Made by a program: the position numbers and the translations under genes
Notes under the pieces: generated by a model
What the model was told of the DNA's origin: nothing
The model's database searches: none
What the model saw: only the letters and a program-made list of their open reading frames with translations
NCBI GenBank assembly: GCA_021791615.1
Contig: JAJYWG010000353.1
Location: forward strand, 1-53,784
Length of the DNA stretch: 53,784 nucleotides
Direction of reading: 5' to 3'
DNA from: Actinomycetes bacterium
Lineage (GTDB): Bacteria; Actinomycetota; Acidimicrobiia; Acidimicrobiales; RAAP-2
Part shown: positions 7,307 through 39,516 of the stretch, in pieces
Position numbering within the stretch: the stretch's first letter is position 1
Layout: each line of letters starts with the position of its first letter

Positions 7307-8328
7307 GGGACCACCATCGTCCCGACCCCCCCGTCGGTGAACAGCTCCAGCAGCAACGCGTGAGGCACGCGTCCGTCGAGAATGTGCGCCCGGCCCACCC
7401 CGGCCCGTACCGCTCGAGCGCAGGCCTCTGCTTTCGGCGCCATCCCTCCTCCCGCCGCACCCGACGCGACCATCTCGTCGAGGATCCCGGCCGTCACCCG
7501 GCGAAGGAGCGTGGCCGGATCGTCCGGATCGGAGCGCAGACCCGCCACGTCCGTGAGGTAGACCAGCTTCTCGGCTTCGAGGGCCTCCGCGATCGCACCA
7601 GCCACAGTGTCGGCGTTGATGTTGTACGCCTGGCCCGCCGTGTCGGCGCCGATGGTGGCGACGACCGGTACGAGCCCTTCAGCCAGCAGGCGAGTGATCA
7701 TCACGGGATCGATCTCCACGACGTCCCCGACGTAACCGAGCTCTGCGGATCGACGAGCAGCGGTGATCATGCGGGCGTCCTCCCCCGAAAGTCCCACGGC
7801 CAGCGGTCCGTGAATGTTCATGGCCGAGACGATGTCGCGGTTCACCTTGCCCACCAGCACCATCCGAGCGATGTCGAGGGTGTCGGCATCGGTCACCCGC
7901 AGGCCCCCCAGGAACTGGGTCTCTTTGCCAACTCGCCGCAGGAGATCTCCGATCTGCGGCCCCCCGCCATGGACGACGACCGGCAGCATGCCGACCGAGC
8001 GGAGCAGGATCACGTCTTGGGCGAACGACGCCAACGCCGACTCCGAGGAGTTGGGCGTGCCCGGCTCGGTCCCCGGCGTCATGGCGCTCGGTGTGCCCGG
8101 CTCGGTCCCCGGCGTCACTGCGTCGCGCGCGTCCGGCGGGACGGCGCCCGCCAGGGCATTGCCCCCGTACTTCACGACGACGATTTTCCCCGAGAACCGC
8201 CGGATATAGGGCAGTACCTCCACCAGGAATTCGGCTTGCGCCTTCGGATCGCCGACCGATCCCGGCCGCAAACCCGTGCTCGGATCGGTCACGACATCGA
8301 GCGAGCCGCCAACTGGGTCCGGGCTCAC
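7303..8328 (-). CDS. argB: Acetylglutamate kinase with a repeat insertion
   Basis: This enzyme phosphorylates N-acetylglutamate. VVVKYGGNAL (about 51-60) and VVHGGGPQIGDLLRR are the nucleotide and acetylglutamate motifs; NINADTVAGAIAEAL and GGMAPKAEACARAV follow in order. Between the first motif and SFAQDVILLRSVG lies an extra stretch of about 37 residues (61-97) holding two copies of a 12-residue TPGTEPGTP-type unit; relatives have only a few residues there. The insert follows the nucleotide-binding glycine loop, so an effect on catalysis or on feedback inhibition is possible. The GTG start overlaps the argJ stop. Confidence 0.95.
   Translation of the reverse strand: MSPDPVGGSLDVVTDPSTGLRPGSVGDPKAQAEFLVEVLPYIRRFSGKIVVVKYGGNALAGAVPPDARDAVTPGTEPGTPSAMTPGTEPGTPNSSESALASFAQDVILLRSVGMLPVVVHGGGPQIGDLLRRVGKETQFLGGLRVTDADTLDIARMVLVGKVNRDIVSAMNIHGPLAVGLSGEDARMITAARRSAELGYVGDVVEIDPVMITRLLAEGLVPVVATIGADTAGQAYNINADTVAGAIAEALEAEKLVYLTDVAGLRSDPDDPATLLRRVTAGILDEMVASGAAGGGMAPKAEACARAVRAGVGRAHILDGRVPHALLLELFTDGGVGTMVVP
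8057..8117. repeat. Two-copy 36-nt-period in-frame repeat inside argB
   Basis: The 25-nt core beginning GTGCCCGGCTCGGTCCCC occurs identically at 8057-8081 and 8093-8117. The period is 36 nt, exactly 12 codons. On the coding strand each copy encodes TPGTEPGTP. It lies in the variable loop after the KYGGNAL motif of acetylglutamate kinase. Confidence 0.9.
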
Positions 8329-9557
8329 GACGTCGTCCGGTTCTCGTCGATGTACCCGTAGCCAAGGTCCGCAGTGAGGATCGCTGCCTCACCACTCCCG
8401 AGACCCAGATCGCACACCAGCTCGACGTAGCGACCGGCCATATGCGCCTGCACCTGGGCACTGTCATGTGGGGCCGCCATGCCACCCACGCACACCGGCG
8501 TCCCTCCGTAGGAAACGCTCACCCGCTTCATGTCGAAGTCGACGCCAGCCGAGCCCAGCTCGCTCACGACCCGCCCCCAGTACGGGTCGGCTCCGTTGAA
8601 CGAACATTTCACCAGCAACGAGTCAGCGACCCGTCGAGCCGCCCGATGGGCCTCGTCGTCCGATGCGGCGCCCGCCACGCGCACCGTCACCACCTTGGTG
8701 GCTCCTTCTGCGTCGGCCACCATCTGGCGCGCCAACGACGTGCAGACCTCCTGCACTGCCACCGCGAGGTCTGCCTCGACCACCGGCCCGGCCCGGCCGC
8801 TCGCCAGGATCACCACGGTGTCGTTGGTCGAGGTGCAGCCGTCGATCGTGATGGCATTGAAAGATCGCTCGACTGCGTCGGCCAGCACCGCACGGAGCAC
8901 CGGCGGCTCGGCCATGGCGTCGGTCGTGAGCACGGCGAGCATCGTCGCCATGTTCGGAGCGAGCATCGCCGCGCCCTTAGCCATCCCGCCGACGGTGAAC
9001 CGGCCGGTGAGACCACCGGCGTGCGCCGTCCCTACGGCTGCGCCCGATGCCCTTGAAGCCGACACCGGGCCTTGGGCAACGGCCTCTTTGCGAACGGTGT
9101 CGGTGGTCATGATGGCTTCGGCCGCCGCTGCGCCCGCTGCCTCGCCAGCCGATCGATTGGCAAGTACCGCTGCCACGCGAGGTGCCACGAGATCGATCGG
9201 GAACGGCACCCCGATGAGGCCGGTCTGGCATACCAGCACCTCCTCGGGGCTGGAGCCGATCGACTGGGCTGCTCTCTGGCACATCGCGAGTGCTGCCCGC
9301 AGCCCTTCTTCGCCGGTGGCGGCATTGGCATTGCCCGAGGTGAGCAGCACCGCCGAGGCCATCCCTCCGGTCGTCGCCAGATGTGATCGGCTCACCTGCA
9401 CCGGCGCAGCGGCGGCCAGGTTCTGCGTGAAGACCGCGGCGGCCGGCACCGGCCGGCCGTCGGCAGTTGCCACGAGCGCGAGGTCGGTCGCATCCGAGGC
9501 CTTGATCCCGATCGCACCGGAGGCTGCCACGAAACCGGATGCCGCAGTGACGCTCAC
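8325..9557 (-). CDS. argJ: Bifunctional ornithine acetyltransferase / N-acetylglutamate synthase
   Basis: This enzyme recycles the acetyl group from acetylornithine to glutamate and may also use acetyl-CoA. GGMAKGAAMLAPNMATMLAV contains the self-cleavage site before Thr of the ATML motif, which makes the alpha and beta chains. SFNAITIDGCTSTNDTVVIL and SFNGADPYWGRV are further family motifs. The GTG at 9557 gives 410 residues starting VSVTAASGFVAASGA and overlaps the argC stop; the frame upstream of it is not conserved. Confidence 0.96.
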   Translation of the reverse strand: MSVTAASGFVAASGAIGIKASDATDLALVATADGRPVPAAAVFTQNLAAAAPVQVSRSHLATTGGMASAVLLTSGNANAATGEEGLRAALAMCQRAAQSIGSSPEEVLVCQTGLIGVPFPIDLVAPRVAAVLANRSAGEAAGAAAAEAIMTTDTVRKEAVAQGPVSASRASGAAVGTAHAGGLTGRFTVGGMAKGAAMLAPNMATMLAVLTTDAMAEPPVLRAVLADAVERSFNAITIDGCTSTNDTVVILASGRAGPVVEADLAVAVQEVCTSLARQMVADAEGATKVVTVRVAGAASDDEAHRAARRVADSLLVKCSFNGADPYWGRVVSELGSAGVDFDMKRVSVSYGGTPVCVGGMAAPHDSAQVQAHMAGRYVELVCDLGLGSGEAAILTADLGYGYIDENRTTS

Positions 9558-10597
9558 GGGTACACCCCGACGATCGGGAGCCCCGTGGCTTGTGGCAGTC
9601 CGAGCGCGATATTGGCACACTGGACCGCCTGGCCTGATGCCCCTTTCACGAGGTTGTCGAGGGCGCAGAGTGCCAGCACCCAGCCGGTCCGTCGATCGGA
9701 GCGGACGGTCACGTGGGCGCAGTTCGATCCCGCGGTCGCCTTGGTCGAAGGCGGCGTGTCGGTCACCACGACGAACGGCGATCCCGTATACGCCTGCCGG
9801 AGGATGCCCAGGAGCTCGTCGGTGTCATAGGGACCGGTGGGTCGGGCGTAGCACGTGGCGAGGATCCCTCTCGACATCGGTGCCAGGTGGGGGGTGAACA
9901 GGACCGAAGCTTGGAGCACCTGTTCGATCTCGGGCGTGTGGCGGTGCTCGAGGAGCCCGTACGCCGAGAAATCGCCGTCGACGTGCCCGAACTGCAGCCT
10001 GTCGGCACCGGGCCCCGCTACCCCGCGGCCCGCCCCCGAGACCCCGCTGGCAGCGTCGACCAGGATGCCGTCCCGCTGTACTGCACCGGACGCCACCAGC
10101 GGTGCAAGGGCGAGAGCCGCCGCCGTCGGGTAACACCCCGCCGCGGCCACGAGACGGGCGCCATCGAGTTGGCCGACGCACAGCTCGGGGAGCCCGTACA
10201 CCGCCTCTTGGAGAAGGTCGGGAGCCGCGTGCTCCTGGCCGTACCAGGTGGAGTAGAGGCTCGGGTCCTTCAAGCGGAAGTCGGCGGCGAGGTCGACCAC
10301 CACGCCGACGCGCCCGAGCAGGGACGGAACGAAGTGCTGGGACTGGCCGTGGGGCAGCGCGCTGAAGACCACGTCGAAACCGTCGAGCGCAGCGGCGCAG
10401 TCCTTTGCGTACGGATCGAAGGAGGCGTACGCCATCGAGGGGTACGCGGTTGCCAACGACGGCGTGTGCGCAGCCAGGCGCTCTCCGGCATGTCCACCTG
10501 CCGCTGCAAGCTCGACGTCGAAATTCGGGTGGGCAGCGCACAGGCGCAGGAGCTCGACGCCGACGTAGCCCGATGCGCCGATGATGCCGATCTTCAT
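9554..10597 (-). CDS. argC: N-acetyl-gamma-glutamyl-phosphate reductase
   Basis: This NADPH-dependent enzyme reduces N-acetylglutamyl phosphate. MKIGIIGASGYVGVELLRL is the Rossmann start, VFSALPHGQS is typical of the family, and VAAAGCYPTAAALAL carries the catalytic cysteine. The length of 347 residues is normal. It is the first gene of the cluster: a strong promoter ends only 8 nt before the ATG, so the mRNA is probably leaderless. Confidence 0.96.
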   Translation of the reverse strand: MKIGIIGASGYVGVELLRLCAAHPNFDVELAAAGGHAGERLAAHTPSLATAYPSMAYASFDPYAKDCAAALDGFDVVFSALPHGQSQHFVPSLLGRVGVVVDLAADFRLKDPSLYSTWYGQEHAAPDLLQEAVYGLPELCVGQLDGARLVAAAGCYPTAAALALAPLVASGAVQRDGILVDAASGVSGAGRGVAGPGADRLQFGHVDGDFSAYGLLEHRHTPEIEQVLQASVLFTPHLAPMSRGILATCYARPTGPYDTDELLGILRQAYTGSPFVVVTDTPPSTKATAGSNCAHVTVRSDRRTGWVLALCALDNLVKGASGQAVQCANIALGLPQATGLPIVGVYP

Positions 10598-10599
10598 GC

Positions 10600-10640
10600 T
10601 GCAATACTATACGTGCTCTCGCATATTCATGCAAGTCGCG
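10600..10640 (-). promoter_or_regulatory. argC promoter with overlapping ArgR-like operator
   Basis: On the minus strand TTGCAT (10634-10629) and TATAGT (10611-10606) are separated by exactly 17 nt, a good sigma-A-type match. TATAGT ends 8 nt before the ATG, so transcription should start at or next to the start codon. The -35 region sits in GCATGAATATGC, an inverted repeat with GCAT arms that resembles an ARG-box half-site pair. Occupation by ArgR there would block RNA polymerase. The operator role is inferred. Confidence 0.75.
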
Positions 10641-10666
10641 CCGGCGTCCCGGGAGGTGAAGGGCGC

Positions 10667-10775
10667 CAGAGGTCGGGCGCCAGAGGTCGGGCGCCAGAGG
10701 TCGGGCGCCGGTGGTCAGCGCCAGAGGTCGGGCGTCGGTGGTCAGCGCCAGAGGTCGGGCGCCGGTGGTCAGCGC
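10667..10775. repeat. Composite tandem array between pheT and argC
   Basis: Two unit types alternate. Unit A, CAGAGGTCGGGCGC (14 nt), starts at 10667, 10681, 10695, 10722 (last base T) and 10749. Unit B, CGGTGGTCAGCGC (13 nt), starts at 10709, 10736 and 10763. The order is AAABABAB. The last B unit carries the pheT stop codon, so the array reaches the coding end. GGCGCC palindromes at unit joints could fold in RNA. It fills most of the gap between the pheT stop and the argC promoter. Confidence 0.9.
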
Positions 10776-13285
10776 AGCACGGCGTTGACGGACGCGGCAA
10801 CCCCCTCGAGCACTCGGCTCCGGCACGCCGCCACCTCTTCGTCGGTCAGCGTGCGGTCGAGGGCGCAGAAGCGGAGCCGGAACGCAAGGCTCTTGCGACC
10901 CTGACCGACGCTTCCGCCCCGGTAGACGTCGAACAGGTGCACCGACTCGAGCAGCTCGCCGCCCGAGTCCTCGATCGCTTCGGCTACGCGTCCAGCCGGG
11001 GTCTCCTCGTCGACGACCAGCGCCAGGTCCACGTCGGCCGACGGGTAGCGGCTGACCGGGAGGACGAGGTCGGGACGGCGGGAGACAACCGAAGAGTCCA
11101 GCAGGAGGCCGAGATCGGCCTCGAGCCACCCGATCCGGCGTCCGTTGGCCAGCCCGGGGACGAACGCGCGGGCGACTTCGGGATCGACCTCCCCCACTGC
11201 GCCGACGACCTCTCCCGAGCTCGTCACCACGCGGGCCGAACGGGTGGGATGGAGACCCGGGATGGTCCGATCGGCCTCCAGGGTCATCGAGCGCCGATCC
11301 AGCCCGAGCGCGCCGGCAAGGCCGCACCACACATCAACGGCACTCCGGGCATCGTCCCCGGTCCCGGCCAAGGCCACCGACACCAGCTCCCTTTCGATCG
11401 GCAGCTCCGAGGCTTGCGGGGGATGCTCTCGAGGTGTGCCGAACACCGTTCCCAGCTCGAACAACCGCACGTGCTCTTGGCGGCGGTCCACGTTGTAGGC
11501 GACCGCTCGGCAGAGCCCGGCAAGGAGGGTACGTCGCAGGAATGGCTCGTCGGAGACGAGCGGGTTCGCCACTCGGACTGCAGGGCCGCTCAGACCGGCA
11601 TGGGAAAGGTCGGCCGAGCTTACGAACGCGGGGGTCCAGGCCTCGTCGATACCCATACCGCAGAGGACGTCGGCAACCAGGCGACGTTCCCGCTGGCGAT
11701 CGGTGAGCCGACCTGGTGCCGGCCACGAAGGCTGTCGGCGGGGCAGCTTCGAGTACCCATACGTGCGCGCAACTTCCTCGATCACGTCCTCGATCCCGTG
11801 CGGGGACGGCCGCACGTCGGGGCGGTTGGTCGGCACGGTGACCACGAGCGTGTCACCTCCGTCATCTTCCCGGGGTTCCAGATTGCAGGCGAACCCGATC
11901 GGTCCGATCAACGACGCCACCTCATCTCCTGCAAGCTCGATCCCGAGGACCGAGCTCACTCGTGCCAGCGGAAGGCGAAGCCGGATCGGATCGGGCACCT
12001 TGCCACGCACGTCCAGGACACCCGGGGCCGCCGTCCCCCCGGCCAGCTCGCAGAAGCGCTCCGCAGCCCGGTCGATGCCCCACGGATCGCAGCCCCGCTC
12101 GAAACGGATCGACGCCTCGGTGCGCAAGCCGAGGCGCTTCGAGGTGCGAGCGATCGCCATCGGTGTGAAGTACGCGGCTTCGAGGAGCACCCGGGTCGTC
12201 GCGTCGGTGATCTCCGAGGAAGTGCCGCCCATGATCCCTCCGATCCCCACCGGCGTGCCTGCAGCGTCGCAGATGAGGCAGTCCTCGCCCCGGTCGCCAA
12301 GGCTGCGCCCTGGGGTCCCGAGAGTCCGGACCACGCCGTCGAGGGTCTGGACGGTCTCAGCCGGTCGGGCACGGCGCACGACGAGGCCTGTTCCGGCCAG
12401 GCGGTCGAGATCGTAGGGATGCGTGGGCTGGCCCAGTTCGAGCATGACGTAGTTCGACGCGTCGACGATCCGGTTGATCGGTCGCATGCCGGCCATGACC
12501 AACCGCCGGGCCAACCACGTCGGGGAGGGACCGGTATCCACGTCGACGAGCACTCGCACGGTCATACGCGGGCAGAGGTCGCGGTCGTCGACAACCAACG
12601 AAGCCAGTGATCCCACCGGCGCGGGCGCGACGGGGGACATGGTCGGGAGCGGTGGCACCGGCGGCGCGGTCGGTACGGACGGCACCGGCGGCACAGGCGG
12701 CGCGGGCGGCAACCCTGTGTAGGGGAGCCTGAGTCGCGCTGCCAGATCCCTCGCGACGCCGGCAATGCACCAGGCGTCAGGTCGATTGCCTTCCACGGTC
12801 ACGTCGAAAACGATGTCGGGCACGATCCCCAGTGCCTCGGTGAGCTGTACCCCAGGAACGATCCCCTCACCGGGCCCGATGACGAGGAGGCCGGCGTGAT
12901 CGTCGGTGAGCCCCAGCTCGCGCCCGGAGCACAGCATGCCGTCGGAGGTCACTCCCCGCATCGTGCGCCGACCGATCGTGAGCCCACCGGGCAGCGTCGT
13001 GCCTACCGGGGCGAGCGGTACCAGGTCGCCGACTGCGAAGTTCGTCGCCCCGCAGACGATCTCCTGCGGACCCATGCCGGCATCCACGGTCACCTTCCGG
13101 ATCCGGTCGGCGCCCGCAATGGCGGCAATCCCGTCGACTCTGGCCACCACGACGCCCTCGAGCCCTTCGCCGATGTGCTCGACGCCTTCCACGACCAAAC
13201 CGAGGTCATCGAGGGTTTCGGCCAGGACGGCCGGCGGAGCGTCGAACGGGGCGAAGTCCTTCAGCCAGCTGAGCGGAGCTCGCAT
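10769..13285 (-). CDS. pheT: Phenylalanyl-tRNA synthetase beta subunit
   Basis: The 838-residue beta chain of PheRS has an N-terminal tRNA-binding domain (about 40-150), B3/B4 editing domain motifs (MRPINRIVDASNYVMLELGQ, then HPYDLDRL), B5 and the synthetase-like core, and a C-terminal FDX-ACB domain (SRYPSADVDLALVVDE). The ATG at 13285 shares one base with the pheS stop (TGATG). The frame continues 70 codons upstream but antisense-like residues there show it is not used. A Pro/Val/Ala-rich segment at about 191-225 is inserted in the linker before the B3/B4 domain. Confidence 0.96.
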   Translation of the reverse strand: MRAPLSWLKDFAPFDAPPAVLAETLDDLGLVVEGVEHIGEGLEGVVVARVDGIAAIAGADRIRKVTVDAGMGPQEIVCGATNFAVGDLVPLAPVGTTLPGGLTIGRRTMRGVTSDGMLCSGRELGLTDDHAGLLVIGPGEGIVPGVQLTEALGIVPDIVFDVTVEGNRPDAWCIAGVARDLAARLRLPYTGLPPAPPVPPVPSVPTAPPVPPLPTMSPVAPAPVGSLASLVVDDRDLCPRMTVRVLVDVDTGPSPTWLARRLVMAGMRPINRIVDASNYVMLELGQPTHPYDLDRLAGTGLVVRRARPAETVQTLDGVVRTLGTPGRSLGDRGEDCLICDAAGTPVGIGGIMGGTSSEITDATTRVLLEAAYFTPMAIARTSKRLGLRTEASIRFERGCDPWGIDRAAERFCELAGGTAAPGVLDVRGKVPDPIRLRLPLARVSSVLGIELAGDEVASLIGPIGFACNLEPREDDGGDTLVVTVPTNRPDVRPSPHGIEDVIEEVARTYGYSKLPRRQPSWPAPGRLTDRQRERRLVADVLCGMGIDEAWTPAFVSSADLSHAGLSGPAVRVANPLVSDEPFLRRTLLAGLCRAVAYNVDRRQEHVRLFELGTVFGTPREHPPQASELPIERELVSVALAGTGDDARSAVDVWCGLAGALGLDRRSMTLEADRTIPGLHPTRSARVVTSSGEVVGAVGEVDPEVARAFVPGLANGRRIGWLEADLGLLLDSSVVSRRPDLVLPVSRYPSADVDLALVVDEETPAGRVAEAIEDSGGELLESVHLFDVYRGGSVGQGRKSLAFRLRFCALDRTLTDEEVAACRSRVLEGVAASVNAVLR
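12611..12709. repeat. Proline-rich low-complexity insert in pheT
   Basis: This stretch encodes about 33 residues made mainly of P, V and A (PPAPPVPPVPSVP, then APPVPPLPT and SPVAPAPVG). It is built of degenerate GGCACCGGCGG-like units and lies between conserved parts of PheT. It is probably an exposed flexible linker. Confidence 0.75.
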
Positions 13286-14334
13286 CAGAACTGCCTCAAG
13301 AAACGGAGGTCGTTCTCGACCAGCGCCCTCATGTCGGCGATCCCGTGGCGCATCTGCGCGCAACGGTCGATACCGAACCCGAACGCGAAACCGGACCACG
13401 TGCTGCGATCGACGCCAACCGCGTCCAGCACTGCCGGGTCCACCATCCCGCACCCTCCGAGCTCGATCCACCCGGTGCCAGAGCAGGTCCGGCATCCTTC
13501 GCCTCGGCAGAGCGTGCAGGTGATCTCGAACTCGGCTGACGGCTCGGTGAACGGAAAGTAGGCCGGGCGGAACCGTGAGTGGATATCGGCACCGAAGTAG
13601 GCCCCGGTGAAGGTCTCGATCGTGCCTGCCAGGTCGGCGAACGTGATGCCCCGGTCGACCACCAGTCCTTCGATCTGGTGAAACACGGCGAGGTGACGGG
13701 CGTCGGGGGTGTCGCGGCGGTAGCAGCGCCCCGGGATCACCGCGTGAACCGGCAAAGTGCCTGCGGCAACTGCATCTTCGAGCAGGTGGATCTGCACCGG
13801 CGAGGTGTGGGTCCGCAGCATGATCGTCTCCGGCTCCCCCAGCTCCAAGTAGAACGTGTCAAACATCCCTCGTGCCGGATGGGCCGGTGGGATATTGAGC
13901 GCCTCGAAGTTGTACCAATCGGTCTCGGCCTCGCTTCCCTCGGCCACCGAGAACCCCATGCCGACGAACGTGTCCTCGAGGGCCCGACGGGTCTGGGTCA
14001 CCACGTGCAGATGTCCCCGGCGCAGTCCTGGATCGGCCACCAGCCCCTCGCTGAGGTCCAGGGTATCTTCGGCCAGCAATTGCGCCCGCTCAGCTGCTGC
14101 CAGGCGGCGGCGAGCCTCGGCAAACGCCTGTTCCAGCCGCAGTCGTGCCTCGTGCAGCTCACGCCCGGAGACCCGGCGCTGCTCGGGATCGAGCGACCCC
14201 AGGCTGCGGTGCGCGAGCGCGAGGCCGCTCCGCTTCCCCAGGACCTCCTGCTCGGCAGCCTCGAGCTCGCCCAGCGAAGAGGCCGCATCGAGCTCGGCCA
14301 GCGCCTCGTGCTCGATCCGCCCGACGTCGATCAT
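13285..14334 (-). CDS. pheS: Phenylalanyl-tRNA synthetase alpha subunit
   Basis: This catalytic alpha chain has 349 residues: an N-terminal coiled-coil arm (about 1-90), then the class-II core with motif 2 (GRCYRRDTPDARHLAVFHQ) and motif 3 (GFAFGFGIDRCAQMR). The segment CTLCRGEGCRTCSGTGW contains paired cysteines like a zinc knuckle, seen in some bacterial PheS. The ATG at 14334 overlaps the upstream methyltransferase stop as ATGA. Confidence 0.96.
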   Translation of the reverse strand: MIDVGRIEHEALAELDAASSLGELEAAEQEVLGKRSGLALAHRSLGSLDPEQRRVSGRELHEARLRLEQAFAEARRRLAAAERAQLLAEDTLDLSEGLVADPGLRRGHLHVVTQTRRALEDTFVGMGFSVAEGSEAETDWYNFEALNIPPAHPARGMFDTFYLELGEPETIMLRTHTSPVQIHLLEDAVAAGTLPVHAVIPGRCYRRDTPDARHLAVFHQIEGLVVDRGITFADLAGTIETFTGAYFGADIHSRFRPAYFPFTEPSAEFEITCTLCRGEGCRTCSGTGWIELGGCGMVDPAVLDAVGVDRSTWSGFAFGFGIDRCAQMRHGIADMRALVENDLRFLRQF

Positions 14335-15152: not shown

Positions 15153-15532
15153 GAGGCCACCTCGACGGGAGCGCCAGCGGGAGCCGAGGCACGAGCCAGC
15201 TCGACCAGAGCCGAGAACGCGTCCGCGTCGGTCACCGCCAGGTCGGCCAGGACCTTGCGATCCACTTCGACGCCGGCCCGGTGGAGCCCGGCGATGAAGC
15301 GGCTGTAGCTCATCCCGTTCTCGCGCGCTGCCGCGTTGATGCGCTGGATCCATAGTTTGCGAAAGTCGCCCTTGCGGGCCCGCCGATCCCGGTAGGCGTA
15401 CTGGAGCGAGTGCATGAGCTGCTCGTTGGCAGCACGGTAGGTCCGGCTCTTGTTGCCGTAGTACCCCTTCGCCTGCTCCATGACTGCACGATGGTGCTTC
15501 CGGCCGTGCACTGACCGCTTGACTCTGGCCAT
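15149..15532 (-). CDS. rplT: 50S ribosomal protein L20
   Basis: [20 protein letters not shown], then [15 protein letters not shown] and [18 protein letters not shown] are L20 signatures. The product binds 23S rRNA early in 50S assembly. It is 127 residues, with an Ala-rich acidic tail slightly longer than usual. It is part of the infC-rpmI-rplT operon. Confidence 0.98.
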
Positions 15533-15600
15533 CAGTGGTCTCCCTCTCCTCTTCCTCGAATTGTCCTTCTCCTGGCCGGCGCCTCAGAGCCGGCGCCCGC

Positions 15601-15795: not shown

Positions 15796-15814
15796 GATCG
15801 CTCCTTGCCTCGTC

Positions 15815-17181: not shown

Positions 17182-17269
17182 GCCGCTGGTTCGCCGGGCC
17201 GGCGTACCAGAGGTCTGCTGAATCGCTGGGGTCGATCCTCGCCGCTGGTCAGGGCCAGCCCGGCGCCAG

Positions 17270-17500: not shown

Positions 17501-17502
17501 GT

Positions 17503-23723: not shown

Positions 23724-24902
23724 GTGGAGATCACGAGCCCAGCACCCCTGCTCCTGGCGGTCGACGGCGGAGCCAGCAAGACCGACGTGGCCCTGGTCGC
23801 AGCGGACGGCTCGTTGGTGGGCCGTGCTCGCGGGTCGGCCTCGAACCACCAGACGATCGGTCTGGACGCCGCCATGGACCACCTCGACGCCGCGATCCGA
23901 GAAGCCGTGGCCGGCGCAGCAACCGTCCTCCACTCGGCTGATCAGCCGAGCGCGACCCGTGCCGCGTCGGGGGATGGCCGGCCGCTCTTCGCCCTCGGCA
24001 CGTTCTGCCTGGCCGGCCTTGACCTGGAAGTGGACGAAGCCAGGTTGCAGAACGCGATCGCTGCTCGGGGATGGGCTTCCGAGCAGCTTCTGTTCAACGA
24101 CACGTTCGCAGTCCTTCGCTCCGGCGCCAGTTCGGGATGGGGCATCGGGGTCGTCTGCGGCACCGGGCTCAACTGCGTCGGCCTTGGGCCCTCGGGGGAG
24201 ACGGTGCGCTTTCCGGCTCTCGGCGAGCTGTCAGGAGACTTCGCTCCGGGCGGTATCTGGCTCGGGATACGCGGGCTGGGGATCGCTCTTCGAGCCCGCG
24301 ACGGACGGGGCTGTGCGACGTTGCTGCGAGAGCGCGTCGCTGCACACTTTGGCCGCCATAGCCCCGAAGCGGTCCTCGAGGCCGTGTACACCGGTGAGCT
24401 CCCGCTCGGGAAGCTGGCCGAACTGGCAGAGGTCGTCGTGGCCGCCGCCGCTGACGCCGATGCACCTTCGAACGAGGCGCTGGACCTGCTCGTGAACGAA
24501 GTGGTTGCCATGGTCGCCGCGACCGCCGGACGCTTCGGCAGGGACACGAGCGAGGACAGTCGCAGAAGACCGGACAACGACAGGCCGCCTCCACACTTGG
24601 GCGATGCTGAGCTCTCGGGCGATGCTGAGCTCTTGGGCGATGCTGAGCTCTTGGGCGATGCTGAGCTCTTGGGCGATGCTGAGCTCTTGGGCGACACCGA
24701 GGTAGAGGTCGTCGTCGGCGGAGGCATGTTTGACAGCTCGCTCTTCAGTGATCGAGTGCTGGGTGGCATCCGAGCTTGCCTGCCGCGCGCCGTGCTCCGG
24801 CGGATCGCGGGACCCCCGGTGGTCGGTGCCGCGCTCCTCGGGCTCGATCATCTCGGCGCGAGCCTGGCCGCACAGGAGCGCTTGCGCGCCGCGCTTCGCT
24901 GA
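23724..24902 (+). CDS. BadF/BadG-type sugar kinase (N-acetylglucosamine kinase-like) with repeat insertion
   Basis: This is an ASKHA-fold ATPase. LLLAVDGGASKTDVALVAAD is the phosphate-1 loop, GIGVVCGTGLNCVGLGPSG is the phosphate-2 loop, and VVVGGGMFDSS is the adenosine motif. The GTG at 23724 gives 392 residues. Between about residues 292 and 325 five copies of a GDAELL unit are inserted just before the adenosine motif. Divergence from the GH4 gene suggests that it phosphorylates the same substrate family. Confidence 0.88.
   Translation: MEITSPAPLLLAVDGGASKTDVALVAADGSLVGRARGSASNHQTIGLDAAMDHLDAAIREAVAGAATVLHSADQPSATRAASGDGRPLFALGTFCLAGLDLEVDEARLQNAIAARGWASEQLLFNDTFAVLRSGASSGWGIGVVCGTGLNCVGLGPSGETVRFPALGELSGDFAPGGIWLGIRGLGIALRARDGRGCATLLRERVAAHFGRHSPEAVLEAVYTGELPLGKLAELAEVVVAAAADADAPSNEALDLLVNEVVAMVAATAGRFGRDTSEDSRRRPDNDRPPPHLGDAELSGDAELLGDAELLGDAELLGDAELLGDTEVEVVVGGGMFDSSLFSDRVLGGIRACLPRAVLRRIAGPPVVGAALLGLDHLGASLAAQERLRAALR
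24603..24692. repeat. Five-copy 18-bp in-frame tandem repeat in the BadF-type kinase
   Basis: GATGCTGAGCTCTTGGGC repeats at 24621, 24639, 24657 and 24675, preceded by a one-base variant at 24603. Six codons per unit encode DAELLG. Near-perfect identity implies recent expansion by slippage or unequal exchange. Confidence 0.95.
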
Positions 24903-30388: not shown

Positions 30389-31378
<990 letters not shown>

Positions 31379-31421
31379 TCCTCGCGTGTTCCCCCATGCA
31401 ATCAACGCTGGAGACTGAACG

Positions 31422-32303: not shown

Positions 32304-32352
32304 CCGAGCGCGTGATGGCGGCTGCCACTGGCTGTAGCGAGGCCGTGTAGCG

Positions 32353-33477
32353 ATGTTCCCAGCCGCGTTCGACCTGCATGGGCGCCTGGTCAGGCTCGAA
32401 CCACTGAGTCCGTCCCACGCTTCGGACCTTGCCCAAGCCGCGGAAGAGGACCGCTCGACCTACGCGTACACGTGGGTGCCCAGGGCATCGGAAGTCGAGC
32501 GCTATATCGGAGCCCAACGAGCCCGGGCCGATGCCGGAGAGATGCTCCCGTTCGCGCAAGTCCGCTCCGTCGATGGCAAGGCCGTTGGGTGCACTGCGTA
32601 CTGCAATCCCCGGCCTTGGCCTGATCGCCAAGAGATGGCGGCAGTCGAGATCGGCTACACCTGGTTGGCATCGTCGGCGCAGCACACCGGGATCAATGTC
32701 GAATCCAAGCTCCTTCTCTTGGCCCATGCTTTCGAGCGGTGGGGAGTGGCGCGCGTCGACATCAAGACCGACGTCCGCAACCTGCGATCGCGCCGTGCCA
32801 TCGAGAAACTCGGTGCACAGTTCGAAGGGATCCTGCGGAACTGGTCACAGTCGTGGGCCGCCGGCGAAGAAGGGCACCTCAGGGACTCGGCCATGTACTC
32901 GGTCATCCGCGCAGACTGGGCCGCTTGCTCGCAGCACTTAAAGGCCCGGCTGTCCAGCAACCGGCATGTACGCCAGAGCCAGATCTCGATCGGGATGGGG
33001 AACGCGACGCCGGACGCGCCACGTACCGGCCAACGTGCCCAGCCTGGAGCCATCACGTCGGCGCAGGAAGCCGTCGATGCACTTCGACATCACGGCTCCC
33101 GGATCACCGCTTCACGGCGATTCCTGATCGAAGCGCTGTTCGCATCGGGCGCTCATCGCACGGTGGAGCAATTGGCAGCCGATGTCCAAGAGCAAGTTCC
33201 CGACGTGCACCTGTCGACGATCTATCGGAATCTCGACGAGCTCGAGCGTCTGGGGATCGTGACCCATACTCATCTCGGGCACGGTCCAGCGACGTATCAC
33301 GTGGCCTCTGCGGCGCATGGGCATTTCGTATGCACTGACTGCGGTGCGATGGTCGAAGTTCCGCCAGTAGTCTTCTCCGGCCTGGTGGAGACGGCTGCCT
33401 CAACGTACGGCTTCCGAGTCGATTCCCAGCACTCGGCCGTCCTCGGTCGCTGCCGTACGTGTGCGGGCGACGGCTGA
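32353..33477 (+). CDS. GNAT acetyltransferase fused in frame to a Fur-family regulator
   Basis: One uninterrupted frame of 374 codons has two domains. Residues 1-195 are a RimJ/RimL-type GNAT (LVRLEPLSPSHASDL, then AVEIGYTWLASSAQHTGINV and VDIKTDVRNLRSRRAIEKLG). Residues of about 235-370 are a Fur/PerR-type protein: a winged helix (ITASRRFLIEALFASGAHRT, VHLSTIYRNLDELERLGIV) and a metal domain (HGHFVCTDCG, GRCRTC) with cysteines 327, 330, 367 and 370. A separate Fur could start at the internal ATG at 32995, whose ribosome site is weak. It follows the ABC exporter by 50 nt. Confidence 0.8.
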   Translation: MFPAAFDLHGRLVRLEPLSPSHASDLAQAAEEDRSTYAYTWVPRASEVERYIGAQRARADAGEMLPFAQVRSVDGKAVGCTAYCNPRPWPDRQEMAAVEIGYTWLASSAQHTGINVESKLLLLAHAFERWGVARVDIKTDVRNLRSRRAIEKLGAQFEGILRNWSQSWAAGEEGHLRDSAMYSVIRADWAACSQHLKARLSSNRHVRQSQISIGMGNATPDAPRTGQRAQPGAITSAQEAVDALRHHGSRITASRRFLIEALFASGAHRTVEQLAADVQEQVPDVHLSTIYRNLDELERLGIVTHTHLGHGPATYHVASAAHGHFVCTDCGAMVEVPPVVFSGLVETAASTYGFRVDSQHSAVLGRCRTCAGDG

Positions 33478-33485
33478 GCCTCTTG

Positions 33486-33499
33486 GGGCCGGCCGGCCC
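33486..33499. terminator. GC-rich hairpin between convergent genes
   Basis: GGGCCGGCCGGCCC is a perfect 14-nt palindrome in the 45-nt gap between the GNAT-Fur gene and the convergent sulfatase gene. It has no T tract, so it is only a candidate bidirectional terminator. Confidence 0.35.
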
Positions 33500-33522
33500 G
33501 GTGCGTTGGCGGTGCGCAGAGG

Positions 33523-35904
33523 TCATTGCTCCGAGAGGATCGCTGCCAGTTCGGAGAGAAGATCTCTGACTACCGGGCCATTCACGATCACCTCTGCACG
33601 AGTGATCATCCCGTTGAACGGAAAGGGTGCCCGATAACCGGTACCGACCGCAGGTCCCCACTCGTAGCCGCAGGTCAGGCCGATGCCAGTGCCGTTGAAC
33701 CCCGAGGGGGTGAAGCGTTCGATCTCGCCACGCGCGACATCCTCTCCGTCAAGGTGCAGCGTGCCGATGCCCGACAACCCCTCTCCCACGCTCCTGGGCG
33801 CCTTCTCGAAGTCGAAACGGAGGATGTGGCGACCGGGGACGAGCGCGACCGGCGCGGCAATGACGTCCTGACGTTTGCCGTAGAGGTTGTGGACGTAACG
33901 CAATTGACCGTCGAGGAGGTGGAGTGACCAGCCCCCGAGCACCGAACCCATGGCAATCAGTACGCCTTGTGGAACGACGCCGTCCGGGACTTCGACTTCG
34001 ACGACAAGACTGTGCGAACGGTTCCGGACGTTCACGGCCACCGGCTCGGGCACCTGGGATCCTCCTGGGAAGTACCGAAACCGTGTGCGAGGAGGCAGGC
34101 TGCTGGGCTTGGGGTGAGCCAAGGTCCACAGGACCCTGTTGTCGAGCGGAAGGACCTGGTTCCGCTCGGCCTCGAGCCACCAACGATCCACCAGCTCCCG
34201 GACACGATCGGGCTCATCGGCCGACAGGTCACGCGTCTCCGAAAGGTCCTCCCTCAAGTTGTAGAGCTCCCACACGTCCTCGTCGAACGGCGCGTTGGGA
34301 TCGAGACCATCGTCGTAGAGCGGGCCGACCGGATGGAAAGTGACGGCTTTCCATCCGCCGTGGTAAATGGCGCGGGAGCCGAACATCTCGAAGTACTGGG
34401 TGACGTGCTGTTCGGGAGCTCCTGCGCCCTCGGGGCCGAGGAGGTAAGCGAAGCTCACGCCGTCGAGTGGGCTCTGAGGGACTGTGTCGATCACTTCAGG
34501 CGCCTCGATCCCGACCAGCTCGAGCACCGTCGGTACGACGTCGATAGCGTGAGTGAACTGGTGGCGCACCCCCTTGCCCGACACGGGCATCCCCCCGCTC
34601 CAGCGCACGATGCAGGGATCGGCGACACCTCCCTGATGGACTTCTCGCTTCCACCGCTTGAACGGCGTGTTCCCGGCCATCGTCCAACCCCACGGATAAT
34701 TGTTGTGGGTCGACGGACCACCGATCTCGTCAAGGCGCCCCAGCATCTCGTGGACACCCGCCGGATCAAAATTCGACAACCGGATGTCGTTGATGGAACC
34801 CTCGGGCCCGCCTTCGGCACTTGCGCCGTTGTCGGAGACCACGATGACGAGCGTCTCGTCCAGCTCGCCGAGATCATCGATGAAGCGAAGTACCCGGCCG
34901 ATCTGCTCGTCGGTGTACGACAAGAAGGCGGCGAAGCACTCCATGAACCGGGCCGCGAGCGATTGTTGCTGCTGGTCGAGGTCGTCCCAGGCCGGGACCC
35001 AGGGGGGGCGCGGCGAGAGCTTCGTGCCCGCCGGGAGAAGGCCCATGTCGAGCTGTCGGGCGTAGGCCGCCTCTCGCCATGCGTCCCATCCGCAGTCGAA
35101 ATGGCCGCGATAGCGGGCGATCCACTCAGCCGGTGCCTGGTGGGGTGAATGGCACGCGCCGGTGGCGAAATAGAGAAAGAAGGGTCGTTGCGCGTCCACA
35201 GCCCGCAAGTCGGCAAGCTGCTCGATCGCCCGATCGGCCAGATCAGCGCTTAGGTGGTACCCCTCCTCAGGCAGCTTCGGGGGACGGACCGAGTGATTGT
35301 CGTGGTAGAGCGCTGGAACGAACTGGTGGGTCTCACCCCCGTGAAACCCGTACCAGCGGTCGAATCCTCGAGCGAGAGGCCACGTGCGGCGGGGTGCCGC
35401 CATGTGCGTCTCGTCGTCGGGGGTGAGGTGCCACTTCCCGATCGCATACGTCGCGTAGCCGTGGGCCCTCAGGATCTCCGAGAGAAAGCCGTTTTCCTTG
35501 GGCGGTCTCCCCCAATAGCCGGGGAAGCCGGTCGCGAGGTCGGCAACCCTCCCCATGGCGTTGCGATGGTGGTTGCGTCCCGTGAGCAAGCACGCCCTCG
35601 TCGGAGAGCACAGCGCGGTCGTACGGAAATTGGCTAGGCGGACGCCAGCGGCTGCCTGCGCGTCGAGCACTGGGGTCGCGATATCAGACCCGTAACATCC
35701 GAGCTGGGCATAACCCACGTCATCGAGGACGATCAAGGCAACGTTCGGCGCTCCTGGCGGCCAGGTCGGCTCCTCAGGCCACCACGGCTTCGAGTCACGC
35801 CAATCGCGGCCGATGCGCCCCTTCGTCGATCCGCCACCCCCACCAGCCATGCCACCCCCACCAGCCATGCCGGACCCTTGCTCACCTTGCACCGGTGCTC
35901 CCAT
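33523..35904 (-). CDS. Large arylsulfatase, Cys-type
   Basis: This 793-residue sulfatase has NVALIVLDDVGYAQLGCYG (metal aspartates) and CSPTRACLLTGRNHHRN, the C-x-P-x-R site whose Cys becomes formylglycine. AIGKWHLTPDDETH and VIVVSDNGASAEGG complete the site. A C-terminal beta-rich domain of about 200 residues follows. The N-terminus has two copies of an 18-bp repeat (35833-35868) encoding MAGGGG-type units and no clear signal peptide. A maturing enzyme is needed; the neighbouring EgtB has the related fold but is not that enzyme. Confidence 0.92.
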   Translation of the reverse strand: MGAPVQGEQGSGMAGGGGMAGGGGGSTKGRIGRDWRDSKPWWPEEPTWPPGAPNVALIVLDDVGYAQLGCYGSDIATPVLDAQAAAGVRLANFRTTALCSPTRACLLTGRNHHRNAMGRVADLATGFPGYWGRPPKENGFLSEILRAHGYATYAIGKWHLTPDDETHMAAPRRTWPLARGFDRWYGFHGGETHQFVPALYHDNHSVRPPKLPEEGYHLSADLADRAIEQLADLRAVDAQRPFFLYFATGACHSPHQAPAEWIARYRGHFDCGWDAWREAAYARQLDMGLLPAGTKLSPRPPWVPAWDDLDQQQQSLAARFMECFAAFLSYTDEQIGRVLRFIDDLGELDETLVIVVSDNGASAEGGPEGSINDIRLSNFDPAGVHEMLGRLDEIGGPSTHNNYPWGWTMAGNTPFKRWKREVHQGGVADPCIVRWSGGMPVSGKGVRHQFTHAIDVVPTVLELVGIEAPEVIDTVPQSPLDGVSFAYLLGPEGAGAPEQHVTQYFEMFGSRAIYHGGWKAVTFHPVGPLYDDGLDPNAPFDEDVWELYNLREDLSETRDLSADEPDRVRELVDRWWLEAERNQVLPLDNRVLWTLAHPKPSSLPPRTRFRYFPGGSQVPEPVAVNVRNRSHSLVVEVEVPDGVVPQGVLIAMGSVLGGWSLHLLDGQLRYVHNLYGKRQDVIAAPVALVPGRHILRFDFEKAPRSVGEGLSGIGTLHLDGEDVARGEIERFTPSGFNGTGIGLTCGYEWGPAVGTGYRAPFPFNGMITRAEVIVNGPVVRDLLSELAAILSEQ
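35833..35868. repeat. Two-copy 18-bp repeat at the sulfatase N-terminus
   Basis: GCCACCCCCACCAGCCAT occurs twice back to back. On the coding strand it encodes MAGGGG units ahead of the catalytic domain. The period is six codons. Confidence 0.85.
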
Positions 35905-36147
35905 TGGGCATTCCTCCCCAGATCAGACCTCGTGAACGAGCATGCCATCTTTTCCTCGTGCCCACCCATTGGCAGCCTGGGAGGTCTTCTCACTGCCGAG
36001 CACGCCTTCCCGCCGTGTCCCGGTCGCGGCCAGCACTCGTGCTCGTCGCGGCTACCTTGGTCGCGTTACTTCATACGTGGTTTGGTCGCACTGCAGGGGA
36101 ACTGCCAACAACGATCGACGCGTCGTACTCGAGAGAGCTGAACGGCA

Positions 36148-37680
36148 ATGAACCAAGCTGATCCCAACACGGCAACCGACGTTGGCTGCCTCGCATTGTC
36201 CTCACGCTACGACGCAGTCCGTGCCCTCACTGAGCGGTTGGCAGCACCACTTTCACCTGAGGACCAGACCGTCCAGTCGATGCCTGATGTGAGCCCCACC
36301 AAGTGGCATCGCGGCCATACGTCGTGGTTCTTCGAGACCTTCCTCCTGAAGCCATTCGCTTCCGGTTACAGGGAGTTCGATCCGTCGTACCCATACATCT
36401 TCAACTCCTACTACGAGGCCGTGGGCTCACGGCATCCACGAGCCGATCGCGGCCTGATCTCTCGGCCGGGTGCCCGCGACGTCTCGTGCTACCGATCCCA
36501 CGTCGACGAGAGGATGATCGGCTTTCTCTCTTCCCTGGAGGGCACCTTCGATCTCGCCGACGTCGAGGCACAGCACACTGTCGGTCGCCGAGTTGCAAGA
36601 TCGGGCGAATCCTTCTCTCGGACCGATCATTTCGCTGCTCTTGGCGCGCTCGGGAAGGTCGTCGACCTCGTGGAGCTCGGCCTCAACCACGAGCAGCAGC
36701 ACCAAGAGCTCCTCCTCATGGACATCAAGCACGTCCTGTGGTGCAACCCCAATCTTCCGGCGTACACATCGGACATCGCCGTGCCGTCGGATACCAGCTC
36801 AACGAGAGGATCGGCGGGAGGATCGGCGGGAAGCTTGGCGCAAGGATCGGCGGGGGCTATCGATCCTGTCGCCGGGTGGATCGAGCATCCCGGAGGCCTG
36901 GTCGAGATCGGGCACACCGGAAACGGCTTCGCCTTCGATAACGAGAGCCCGCGCCACGTGACCTACGCGTCGCCATTCGCGCTCGCCGATCGCCCTGTCA
37001 CCTGCGGCGACTGGTGTGCCTTCATCGACGACGGGGGATACCGACGTCCCGAGTTGTGGCTGTCTGATGGGTGGGGTGCGCGCTGCCAGTTCGACTGGAC
37101 GGCGCCCCTCTACTGGACCCATCGCACACGCTCGTCGCATTCCGAATGGAGCGTCTTCACCCTCGGTGGTCTGCGCCCTCTCGAGCCGGACGAGCCGGTC
37201 TGCCACGTGAGCTACTACGAAGCCGATGCCTTTGCCCGCTGGGCGGGCGTTCGACTGCCTACTGAGGTCGAGTGGGAGATGGTGGCCGGCTCACTACTGG
37301 GCGACGCCGCGCGCTCCCATCCGCTTTCGGGCTGGCGCGGAGCGACACGCTCATTTGGCCTGCACCCTCGCTCCGTGAGCGTCCATGACCACGGGCACGT
37401 CGGCGACGTCTGGGAATGGACTCTCAGTGCATACTCCCCCTACCCCGGCTTCAAGCCCGCACCGGGCGCGGTGGGCGAGTACAACGGAAAGTTCATGGTG
37501 AACCAGCATGTCCTGCGCGGTGGATCATGCGTGACTCCCCCAGGGCACGTCCGTCCCACGTACCGGAACTTCTTTCCGCCGGCTGCTCGATGGCCTTTCA
37601 CTGGTGTACGGACTGCTCGCGATCTCGAACCTGGTCGAGGTGGCGAGGTGGGCTCGCTCCCAGGCGCGCCCACCCGTTGA
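36148..37680 (+). CDS. egtB: Ergothioneine sulfoxide synthase EgtB
   Basis: This non-heme iron enzyme couples hercynine to a thiol with O2. Residues 15-200 are the DinB-like iron domain with KWHRGHTSWFFE and LNHEQQHQELLLMDIKH, the histidine ligands. Residues of about 240-500 are the formylglycine-enzyme-like domain (GDVWEWTLSAYSPYPGF, RGGSCVTPPGHVRPTYRNFF). The C-terminal half resembles EgtB of two-gene clusters more than the mycobacterial enzyme. A Gly/Ser/Ala repeat is inserted at about 219-237 between the domains. It is followed by egtD. Confidence 0.94.
   Translation: MNQADPNTATDVGCLALSSRYDAVRALTERLAAPLSPEDQTVQSMPDVSPTKWHRGHTSWFFETFLLKPFASGYREFDPSYPYIFNSYYEAVGSRHPRADRGLISRPGARDVSCYRSHVDERMIGFLSSLEGTFDLADVEAQHTVGRRVARSGESFSRTDHFAALGALGKVVDLVELGLNHEQQHQELLLMDIKHVLWCNPNLPAYTSDIAVPSDTSSTRGSAGGSAGSLAQGSAGAIDPVAGWIEHPGGLVEIGHTGNGFAFDNESPRHVTYASPFALADRPVTCGDWCAFIDDGGYRRPELWLSDGWGARCQFDWTAPLYWTHRTRSSHSEWSVFTLGGLRPLEPDEPVCHVSYYEADAFARWAGVRLPTEVEWEMVAGSLLGDAARSHPLSGWRGATRSFGLHPRSVSVHDHGHVGDVWEWTLSAYSPYPGFKPAPGAVGEYNGKFMVNQHVLRGGSCVTPPGHVRPTYRNFFPPAARWPFTGVRTARDLEPGRGGEVGSLPGAPTR
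36807..36854. repeat. Degenerate 12-bp repeat in egtB linker
   Basis: AGGATCGGCGGG occurs in tandem near 36807 and 36819 and again near 36843 after a diverged stretch. It encodes GSAG units between the two EgtB domains. Confidence 0.7.
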
Positions 37681-37771
37681 GACTCGTCGTGCAAGGAATT
37701 GAGCGACGCGACCGGCTGGGGCGATGGGCGCCGGTGTCTGAGGTCGCGTCCGGCGAAGGGATCGCATCTTC

Positions 37772-38758
37772 GTGACGGACCGGAGCAAAGAAATCATCGT
37801 CGACGTCCATATCACCCCAGAGGACCTCCGCAAGCAGCTCATCGACGACGTCGCGGTCGGGATGAGCGGCGAATCCAAGAGCATTCCACCGGTCTGGTTC
37901 TACGACCGAGAAGGGAGCCGCCTGTTCGCGGAGATCACCAACCTTCCCGAGTACTACCCGACTCGCGCCGAACGTCGCCTACTCCATCAGCATTGCCAAG
38001 ACATCGTCGGTGCGGCGCCCTGTGACACTCTGGTAGAGCTCGGAGCCGGCGCGTGTGAAAAGACCCGAGTTCTTCTCGATGCGATGGCTGCACGAGGAAT
38101 ACTGCGCAGTTACATCCCCTTCGACGTGAGCGACGAGTTCCTTCGCACATCGGCCGAAGAGATCCGAACGGCATACGATGGGCTCGACGTGCATGCTGTG
38201 GTCGGCGACTTCCGCCGACACCTGAATCGCATCCCAAGGCGAGGACGCCGGATGATCGCCTTTCTCGGCGGCACCATCGGCAATTTTCGCCCCGTTGAGC
38301 GGCAACGCTTCCTGTTCGACCTCAACTGCTCGATGGACCACGACGAGTACTTTGTCCTGGGAAGTGACTTGGTCAAGGACTACTCGCGGATGGTGACGGC
38401 CTACGACGATGCCAGCGGCGTCACCGCGGCATTCAACAAGAACGTGCTTCGAGTGCTCAATCGAGAGCTCCGCGCCGACTTCGACGTCTCAGCATTTGAC
38501 CACGTCGCGAAGTGGAACGACCAGGAGCGATGGATCGAGATGCGTTTGCGTTCCCTGCAACGTCAATCTGTGCGGTTCGAGGTGCTTGGCTCAGAGGTGG
38601 AATTCCTCGAAGACGAGGAGCTATTGACCGAGATCAGCGCGAAGTTCACCGTCGAGGAAGTTGTCAGCGAGTTGAGCGAGGCGGGGTTCGTCGTGGACGG
38701 GACCTGGGGCGCCGACGACGGGGAGTTCCTACTGACCCTGGCCCATCCCTACTGCTGA
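37772..38758 (+). CDS. egtD: L-histidine N-alpha-methyltransferase EgtD
   Basis: This SAM enzyme trimethylates histidine to hercynine, the substrate of EgtB. PPVWFYDREGSRLFAEITNL is the family start, TLVELGAGACEKTRVLLDAM is the SAM site, and IAFLGGTIGNFRPVERQRFL and FVLGSDLVKD follow. The 328 residues are standard. It lies 91 nt after egtB. egtA, egtC and egtE are absent here. Its 3' end overlaps the tetR gene by 10 nt on the opposite strand. Confidence 0.95.
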   Translation: MTDRSKEIIVDVHITPEDLRKQLIDDVAVGMSGESKSIPPVWFYDREGSRLFAEITNLPEYYPTRAERRLLHQHCQDIVGAAPCDTLVELGAGACEKTRVLLDAMAARGILRSYIPFDVSDEFLRTSAEEIRTAYDGLDVHAVVGDFRRHLNRIPRRGRRMIAFLGGTIGNFRPVERQRFLFDLNCSMDHDEYFVLGSDLVKDYSRMVTAYDDASGVTAAFNKNVLRVLNRELRADFDVSAFDHVAKWNDQERWIEMRLRSLQRQSVRFEVLGSEVEFLEDEELLTEISAKFTVEEVVSELSEAGFVVDGTWGADDGEFLLTLAHPYC

Positions 38759-39516
38759 GCCACTCCGGGCCCTTTTGGTGGCCCAGCATCCGTGATCCGG
38801 GCTTGCGCGAACACCAAGGAGCGCGTGAACTGCCGCGCGTCGGGCCACGGGAACTCCTTGAGCGCATTGTGCAGGGTGACCGCGCCGTGGAGTGCGACCC
38901 ACGTACCCAGAGCCGCCTCGAACGCGTCGGTTGCGCGAGAGTCTCCCGAAGCAATGCAGCGTTCGATGCCGTCGACCAGCAGCGCCAGCACTTCCCCACC
39001 TCCTTCGGGGACCCGGTCGTCGAGAAAGATCGTGGGCACTCCGACCGGGGTTGCCGGCGGCGCTGGGGGGGTCGTGGGCACTCCGACCGGGGTTGCCGGC
39101 GGCGCTGGGGGGGTCGCGTCGCCACTCGCCGTCGTGGTCAAGGTCCCAGAGAAGAGCACCCGGTAACGCCCAGGGTGCTGCGTCCCGTAGGAGGCGTACG
39201 CCTCACACCCGGCCAGCAAGCGCTCGACCGGACGGTCGTGGCCGGCAACCGCCTGCTCGACAGCACGCCCGATCTCCTCGAAGATCGCGATCGCCACGGC
39301 CTCGAGGATCGCTTGCCGATTGGCGAAGTGTGCGTAGATCGACGGTGCCGCAATACCCACCTCGCGAGCAACGGACCGGAGGGTGACCGCTTCAGCCGAA
39401 CCCGTCTCCTCGATGATGGCCAGTGCGCCGGCCACGATCTCCCCTGCAAGTCGAACCCCCTGACCACGGACGTTCCTGCGGTGAACTCTCGCGGACCTCA
39501 CTGACCGCTCCGGCAC
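38749..39516 (-). CDS. TetR-family regulator with a duplicated proline-rich insert
   Basis: The N-terminal helix-turn-helix (AVTLRSVAREVGIAAPSIYA, then HFANRQAILEAV) is a clear TetR domain. The C-terminal ligand domain has the WHG-type core ATDAFEAALGTWVALHGAVT. Two exact 42-bp repeats encoding TPPAPPATPVGVP interrupt the ligand domain in the middle. The GTG at 39516 is the best start. A perfect palindrome upstream is the likely operator. Confidence 0.9.
   Translation of the reverse strand: MPERSVRSARVHRRNVRGQGVRLAGEIVAGALAIIEETGSAEAVTLRSVAREVGIAAPSIYAHFANRQAILEAVAIAIFEEIGRAVEQAVAGHDRPVERLLAGCEAYASYGTQHPGRYRVLFSGTLTTTASGDATPPAPPATPVGVPTTPPAPPATPVGVPTIFLDDRVPEGGGEVLALLVDGIERCIASGDSRATDAFEAALGTWVALHGAVTLHNALKEFPWPDARQFTRSLVFAQARITDAGPPKGPGVAQQ
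39032..39115. repeat. Exact 42-bp tandem duplication in tetR
   Basis: Bases 39032-39073 and 39074-39115 are identical. The 14-codon unit encodes a Pro/Ala/Val-rich peptide in the TetR ligand-binding domain. Exact identity means the duplication is recent. Confidence 0.95.

Follow-up and report, generated by a model that had tools for sequence, protein, structure and literature searches.

Intragenic minisatellites are already known in bacteria. In Mycobacterium tuberculosis, variable-number tandem repeat (VNTR) loci lie in fhaA, rplW, and aftC, and variants of the pe/ppe genes show an in-frame bias (PMC12817950, in its accessible part). Surveys of prokaryotic satellites and of Bacillus repeats describe periods that are multiples of three and read as coding, other periods outside genes, and densities that differ among species (PMC6749651, PMC8161180, both as far as their accessible text goes). 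Rickettsia palindromic elements, families of repeat elements of about 150 bp, are in-frame inserts within unrelated metabolic genes (PMC10969869, accessible portion). Here we analyze a stretch of 53,784 nt (referred to as the window), contig JAJYWG010000353.1 of an Actinomycetes bacterium (Acidimicrobiales, RAAP-2; assembly GCA_021791615.1), in which argB, a BadF/BadG-type ATPase gene, a sulfatase gene, egtB, and a tetR gene each carry a tandem repeat of their own, and pheT carries a proline-rich insert. What is new is the repeat-rich uncultured group to which the window belongs, and the recurrence of unrelated repeats in one enzyme loop, that of ArgB. The pattern is probably the result of frequent tandem duplication filtered by reading frame and by tolerant sites, and not of selection for repeats.

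Similar to the M. tuberculosis intragenic VNTRs, the repeats consist of in-frame tandem copies within genes. They differ in that many unrelated repeats occur per 50 kb, the excess is found at the level of a group, and relatives carry different repeats in the same loop; the M. tuberculosis loci vary between strains (PMC12817950, in its accessible part), whereas one genome per species is compared here. As in the satellite and Bacillus surveys, periods in genes are multiples of three and arrays with other periods lie outside, but those surveys, in the text available, deal with satellite families and with a constant repeat size in some Bacillus, whereas here period and sequence change from array to array (PMC6749651, PMC8161180); densities are not comparable, as the criteria differ. 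The likeness to Rickettsia palindromic elements is limited to in-frame inserts in unrelated metabolic genes, since the window has short units in tandem that bear no relation to one another. The literature searches on repeats, which did not reach most subscription journals, listed no account of such arrays in core enzymes of Acidimicrobiales or in ArgB.

Excess of near-identical arrays in the clade of the window

Arrays were called with Tandem Repeats Finder (TRF) under a strict criterion (at least 90% matches and at least 36 bp, referred to as near-identical) and a lax one (score of at least 60, any identity). The total sample was 2.3 Mb, comprising the window and 120 stretches from 68 genomes. 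The PheT relatives in GTDB contigs are mainly metagenome-assembled genome (MAG) records labelled Actinomycetes, Acidimicrobiales, or Acidimicrobiaceae, and the closest is locus L001 of genome G001 (FK2.bin96), with a PheT identity of 71% and long synteny with the window. In a PheT tree built from 46 loci plus the window (L047, too short, was omitted), the window and L001 pair at a support of 1.0. The 14-tip group around this pair, referred to as the clade, has a support of 0.42, which rises to 0.97 when L005 and L020 are added. The terms nearer and farther, as well as the family and order of the G genomes, derive from hit-list order and PheT.

Near-identical arrays numbered 52 in 540 kb from eight clade genomes (window included) and 42 in 1.76 Mb from 61 other actinobacterial genomes, i.e., 9.6 vs. 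2.4 per 100 kb, a ratio of 4.0 at a mean GC content of 0.695 vs. 0.687. The difference over genomes was significant (Mann-Whitney, p = 4e-5; p = 9e-5 with the window excluded). PheT-anchored loci gave 28 arrays in 255 kb for the 14 clade tips and 9 in 604 kb for the 33 other tips, and still 28 vs. 9 (in 382 kb) when only tips with a GC content of at least 0.65 were kept. When tip data were shuffled and the best of all clades of 3–40 tips was taken each time, which allows for the choice of clade, the observed maximum was reached in 0 of 2000 permutations.

The excess concerns genes and spacers alike. Strict coding arrays per 100 kb numbered 4.6 in the window, 4.1 in G001, and 5.7 in 10 genomes with near PheT hits, and 1.1, 1.4, and 1.5 in progressively farther sets of 16, 15, and 26 genomes; the corresponding spacer densities were 20, 24, and 24 for the former and 5, 9, and 2 for the latter. 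With four near-identical arrays in 54 kb, the window itself is ordinary for its clade. The data thus support an array excess at the level of a group, the exact extent of which may differ from the 14 tips.

Frame and composition of arrays in genes and spacers

A count of repeats in coding vs. non-coding DNA, which the original prediction had proposed as a check, was run on the sampled clade genomes. Arrays are denser in spacers (20 arrays, 30.7 per 100 kb) than in genes (26 arrays, 5.5 per 100 kb), and the bias toward periods that are multiples of three lies in the coding arrays. Over the near-identical arrays of all 69 genomes, such periods were found in 51/51 coding but 12/27 spacer arrays (p = 4e-9). 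Purifying selection against frameshifts is expected to leave such a bias, which is far weaker in spacers.

Composition and position also bear the mark of a filter. The coding frame of 35 arrays contains 1.9% Arg, compared with 20.2% in the five other frames of the same DNA; coding arrays are enriched in Gly, Ala, Pro, and Asp. Of the 51 coding arrays, 24 lie within the first or last tenth of their gene. Avoidance of Arg, small residues, and terminal positions are as predicted for a filter acting on random duplications.

The strong Gly/Ala/Pro/Asp composition could also be taken to favor selection for variable or disordered inserts, with the repeats acting as tuning or contingency loci, and the original prediction had suggested either a process that makes disordered inserts or selection for repeat-length variation. 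Neither is borne out here, as spacers are richer in arrays than genes, and a disorder index (TOP-IDP) does not separate the coding frame (0.229) from the other frames (0.251). The functions of the affected genes are, moreover, unrelated. Contingency by frame switching does not apply to the five gene repeats of the window, since all have periods that are multiples of three and a change in copy number keeps the frame. We consider selection for such inserts unlikely, and the repeats may well be neutral.

Turnover between sister species

Both flanks of the arrays found in 32 clade loci, a set without the window and G001, were matched in other clade genomes. A comparable site was found for 27 of the 85 arrays and none for 58; in a few cases, two of the 27 represent a single site viewed from both species. 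Array length differed at 20 of the 27, nine times by an exact number of units. For example, L008 has 2.6 copies of a 33-nt unit and two relatives have one copy fewer, and L004 has 2.9 copies of a 14-nt unit that is single in three relatives. The differences in length were multiples of three in 11/11 coding but only 1/9 spacer cases. In 22 control loci, 19 arrays gave six comparable sites, none of which differed in length; five of the six were of the same length but different sequence and chance-like. Such variation in length would also be expected under selection for variable inserts, but none of these sites lies in the window.

The repeats are thus intragenic minisatellites or VNTRs in the sense that units of about 9 nt or more stand head to tail inside genes and that copy number varies among related genomes of the clade; for the arrays of the window itself, the comparison is one of loop lengths. 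In alignments of eight clade pairs, all 22 coding indels were multiples of three in length.

Repeats of the window and their insert sites in relatives

Families in the window were assigned with NCBIfam and Pfam, and translations were used to place the repeats in frame. The genes and repeats are as follows.

7303–8328, minus strand: argB, acetylglutamate kinase (TIGR00761); its AlphaFold model also matches solved acetylglutamate kinases
8054–8137, minus strand: argB repeat, 36 nt x2.3, in frame, TPGTEPGTPxxx x2, in the loop following KYGGNAL
10663–10775, minus strand: spacer array of 27-nt units with 14-nt sub-units, across the pheT stop codon (TRF)
10769–13285, minus strand: pheT, phenylalanine–tRNA ligase beta (TIGR00472)
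12641–12711, minus strand: proline-rich insert in the PheT linker, 27-nt/9-nt periodicity (TRF, translation)
23724–24902, plus strand: BadF/BadG-type (N-acetylglucosamine-kinase-like) ATPase, start codon chosen by eye
24596–24694, plus strand: BadF repeat, 18 nt x5.5, LGDAEL unit, in frame, in an internal loop
33523–35904, minus strand: sulfatase (PF00884)
35833–35871, minus strand: sulfatase repeat, 18 nt x2.2, MAGGGG x2, in frame, in the N-terminal tail
36148–37680, plus strand: egtB, ergothioneine biosynthesis (TIGR03440)
36806–36854, plus strand: degenerate egtB repeat, 12 nt x4.1 (four-residue unit), in the linker from the DinB-like to the FGE domain
38749–39516, minus strand: TetR-family regulator
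39030–39116, minus strand: tetR repeat, 42 nt x2.1, identical copies, 14-residue unit, in frame
45690–45730, plus strand: 13-nt x3.2 array in DNA without a called gene; its period is not a multiple of three
48729–48780, minus strand: weak 15-nt x3.5 repeat within a MerR-like gene

The five gene repeats and the pheT insert, the latter partly periodic, were all located by the original prediction, and TRF and the translations place the five repeats in frame with periods that are multiples of three. The strong spacer array at the pheT stop codon, the 13-nt array, and the weak MerR-like repeat are additional. Copies had been called near identical throughout, which fits BadF (97% matches), the sulfatase (100%), and tetR (100%), but not argB (83%), egtB (72%), or the pheT insert (84%). 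The sulfatase array was taken as coding because of a Shine-Dalgarno-like purine stretch 5' of the ATG at 35904 (by eye); the gene caller placed the start downstream. When codons were shuffled within the genes of the window (n = 100), coding arrays with a TRF score of at least 60 numbered 0.13 on average and two at most, compared with five observed in called genes, or six including the sulfatase.

We compared the insert sites by the length between conserved anchors, counting identical segments once, and found that they correspond to short or variable segments in relatives. An alignment of the window with the 120 best-listed of 2484 hits for BadF gives a loop of 20 residues in 98 of the 121 sequences, whereas it has 69 residues in the window and 35 in the next longest. 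The PheT linker has 48 residues in the window and 25–31 in most relatives (35 in G001, 39 in L015, and 47 in L038), and the EgtB linker 48 compared with 25–45. The TetR segment has 60 residues in the window, 42 in G001, and 23–34 in the others, mostly distant family members. For the sulfatase tail there is nothing to align, as relatives share no sequence upstream of a common GRIGRDWR-like domain start. The description of the host enzymes as conserved is loose for two of them, as BadF was found in only 7 of the 61 relatives searched and the TetR hits are those distant members.

The ArgB loop is the most informative of these sites. G001 carries another repeat (GTADGTG-like) where the window has its own, and among the 120 best-listed of 7998 hits (compared as the window with 119 of them) other lineages carry units of their own, e.g., a ten-residue unit x5 in P0043 and a seven-residue unit x5 in P0102. 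Exact tandem duplications of at least four residues occur in 12/120 ArgB loops (0.66 expected from shuffled loops), compared with 3/120 cores and 1/120 N-terminal tails. In the AlphaFold model (38 sequences), the repeat loop is unstructured, with block means of the predicted local distance difference test score of 46–54. That the same loop has been hit repeatedly suggests that it is permissive. One homolog, P0058 (431 residues), also carries PF00202 (aminotransferase class III) and may be an ArgB-ArgD fusion.

The recurrence in ArgB also bears on whether the arrays are artefacts of metagenome assembly. The nearest relatives are MAGs, whereas the low-repeat phylum sample has long contigs, and the sequence of L003/L205 is interrupted by a stretch of N (an assembly gap in a repeat) at the site matching L008 8978–9039. 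Assembly errors would hardly leave every one of the 51 coding arrays with a period divisible by three or place unrelated repeats in the same ArgB loop across many independent proteins; the copies in argB, egtB, and pheT bear substitutions, and no near-identical array in the window or G001 is longer than 113 bp. We therefore regard an artefact as very improbable.

Least probable of all is the in-frame insertion of a mobile or dispersed element. The Rickettsia palindromic elements described above are known to enter unrelated metabolic genes in this way, but the units in the window are unrelated to each other. Among the matches listed (up to four per array; 3.64 Mb of loci), they recur only as short or low-complexity stretches, so that no related sequence was seen at several loci as in those elements, and Rfam gave no RNA family in the window.

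Other observations concern the surroundings of these genes. The 3' end of pheT has different arrays in the window (10663–10775) and in G001 (a 20-nt array, L155 9374–9450). At 32353–33477, a single open frame fuses a GNAT acetyltransferase and a FUR-family regulator, and the called G001 gene spans the GNAT part only. A histone-deacetylase-domain protein (41817–42953) has a 17-residue insert relative to G001, and 52032–52676 gives a weak match, under the cut-off, to a Mutator-family transposase.

Mismatch repair genes in the clade and its relatives

Loss of mismatch repair, with neither NucS nor MutS present, is another possible cause of the repeats. None of the 19 nearer genomes has a NucS_C match that reaches the cut-off, whereas all five farther ones do; the MutS1 and MutS2 models were over the cut-off in none of the 24. 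A published survey, in its accessible part, records NucS in one acidimicrobiian, Ilumatobacter coccineus (PMC5290159). The 19 nearer genomes comprise nine from the clade and 10 others, and these 10 have few arrays (0–2 per 20–40 kb sampled). Loops of 9–42 nt lie beyond the usual reach of MutS. NucS itself is stated not to correct short indels (PMC8228993, in the text available). Since low-repeat genomes also lack NucS and NucS is reported not to act on short indels, its absence is a context and not an explanation, and we consider mismatch-repair loss an improbable cause.

The 19 genomes without NucS or MutS1 over the cut-off (G001–G013, G018, G020, G021, G024, G033, and G035; G008 has one weak NucS_C match) possibly represent an actinobacterial family without a recognized mismatch-repair system. 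Weak matches to the MutS ATPase domain were found in 6/9 clade genomes (L303–L308; G003, G009, G010, G007, G002, and G004) and 0/15 others; two or more lie close together on one contig in five genomes, and in G002 they are on two contigs. The RecJ model matched none of the 24 genomes and is uninformative.

A proposed filter of frame and site on tandem duplications

Several observations weigh against tandem duplication with a filter of frame and site as the explanation, or at least against its being a distinct property of the clade. The limits of the clade were set only after the tree and the counts had been viewed together, at a node with the low support given above, and the strongest excess in the permutation was that of a 10-tip sister group without the window. 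For the branch that holds the window, the evidence of an excess comes from two sources, the window with four arrays (54 kb) and G001 with 19 (246 kb). Locus L001, from the same contig region of G001, counted zero arrays on the PheT loci, which we think is due to the merging of overlapping TRF rows. From each of six clade MAGs, 40 kb was sampled, and the phylum-wide sample was hand-picked for long contigs. Under the lax criterion there is no excess (coding density of 11.4 per 100 kb in the window vs. 10.1 in the phylum-wide sample), so the claim depends on near-identical, i.e., recent, arrays. The lineage-wide process of the original prediction accordingly stands at the level of the clade and for near-identical arrays, and not for arrays at large.

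Other points concern the filter and the turnover. Under the lax criterion, periods are multiples of three in 171/187 coding arrays. Half of the clade spacer arrays (10/20) also have such periods, which makes it probable that coding ends were miscalled as spacer in some instances, as happened with the sulfatase array; reassigning five of the 20 to genes still leaves spacers denser. Two comparisons between sister species show arrays of equal length but different sequence. Only 3 of 38 indels of 9–200 nt in the clade-pair alignments pass an 85% tandem-duplication test, which means either that arrays are replaced and decay quickly or that events of another kind also play a part; in eight control pairs (MAFFT), 0/15 pass. 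This method is weak, with no usable hits for the window-L001 pair and no scored indels for window-L154.

With these points taken into account, duplication followed by filtering is still the explanation we hold to be likely. Stretches of about 9–40 nt would duplicate in tandem genome-wide in the group of the window, presumably by replication slippage or short-homology recombination, and the arrays would subsequently expand, contract, and be replaced. In spacers, such changes would be tolerated at any length. In genes, the survivors would be those that keep the frame, sit in loops, linkers, or tails, and are read in a frame giving Gly, Ala, Pro, Asp, and Thr. As to why the group has more arrays, a more far-reaching reading is conceivable but doubtful: an acidimicrobial group, part of a wider lineage where neither NucS nor MutS is detected, would have undergone a specific change in replication or repair by which short tandem duplication became a main source of its protein change, with loops of housekeeping enzymes rewritten between sister species by independent repeats.

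Alignments and protein clusters of ArgB, EgtB, and PheT in this group need to be treated with caution, as their loops hold inserts that change quickly and are not homologous. Should complete genomes confirm the excess, the group would be a natural system in which to study the constraints on short tandem duplication in bacteria and the frequency with which slippage adds sequence to enzyme loops.

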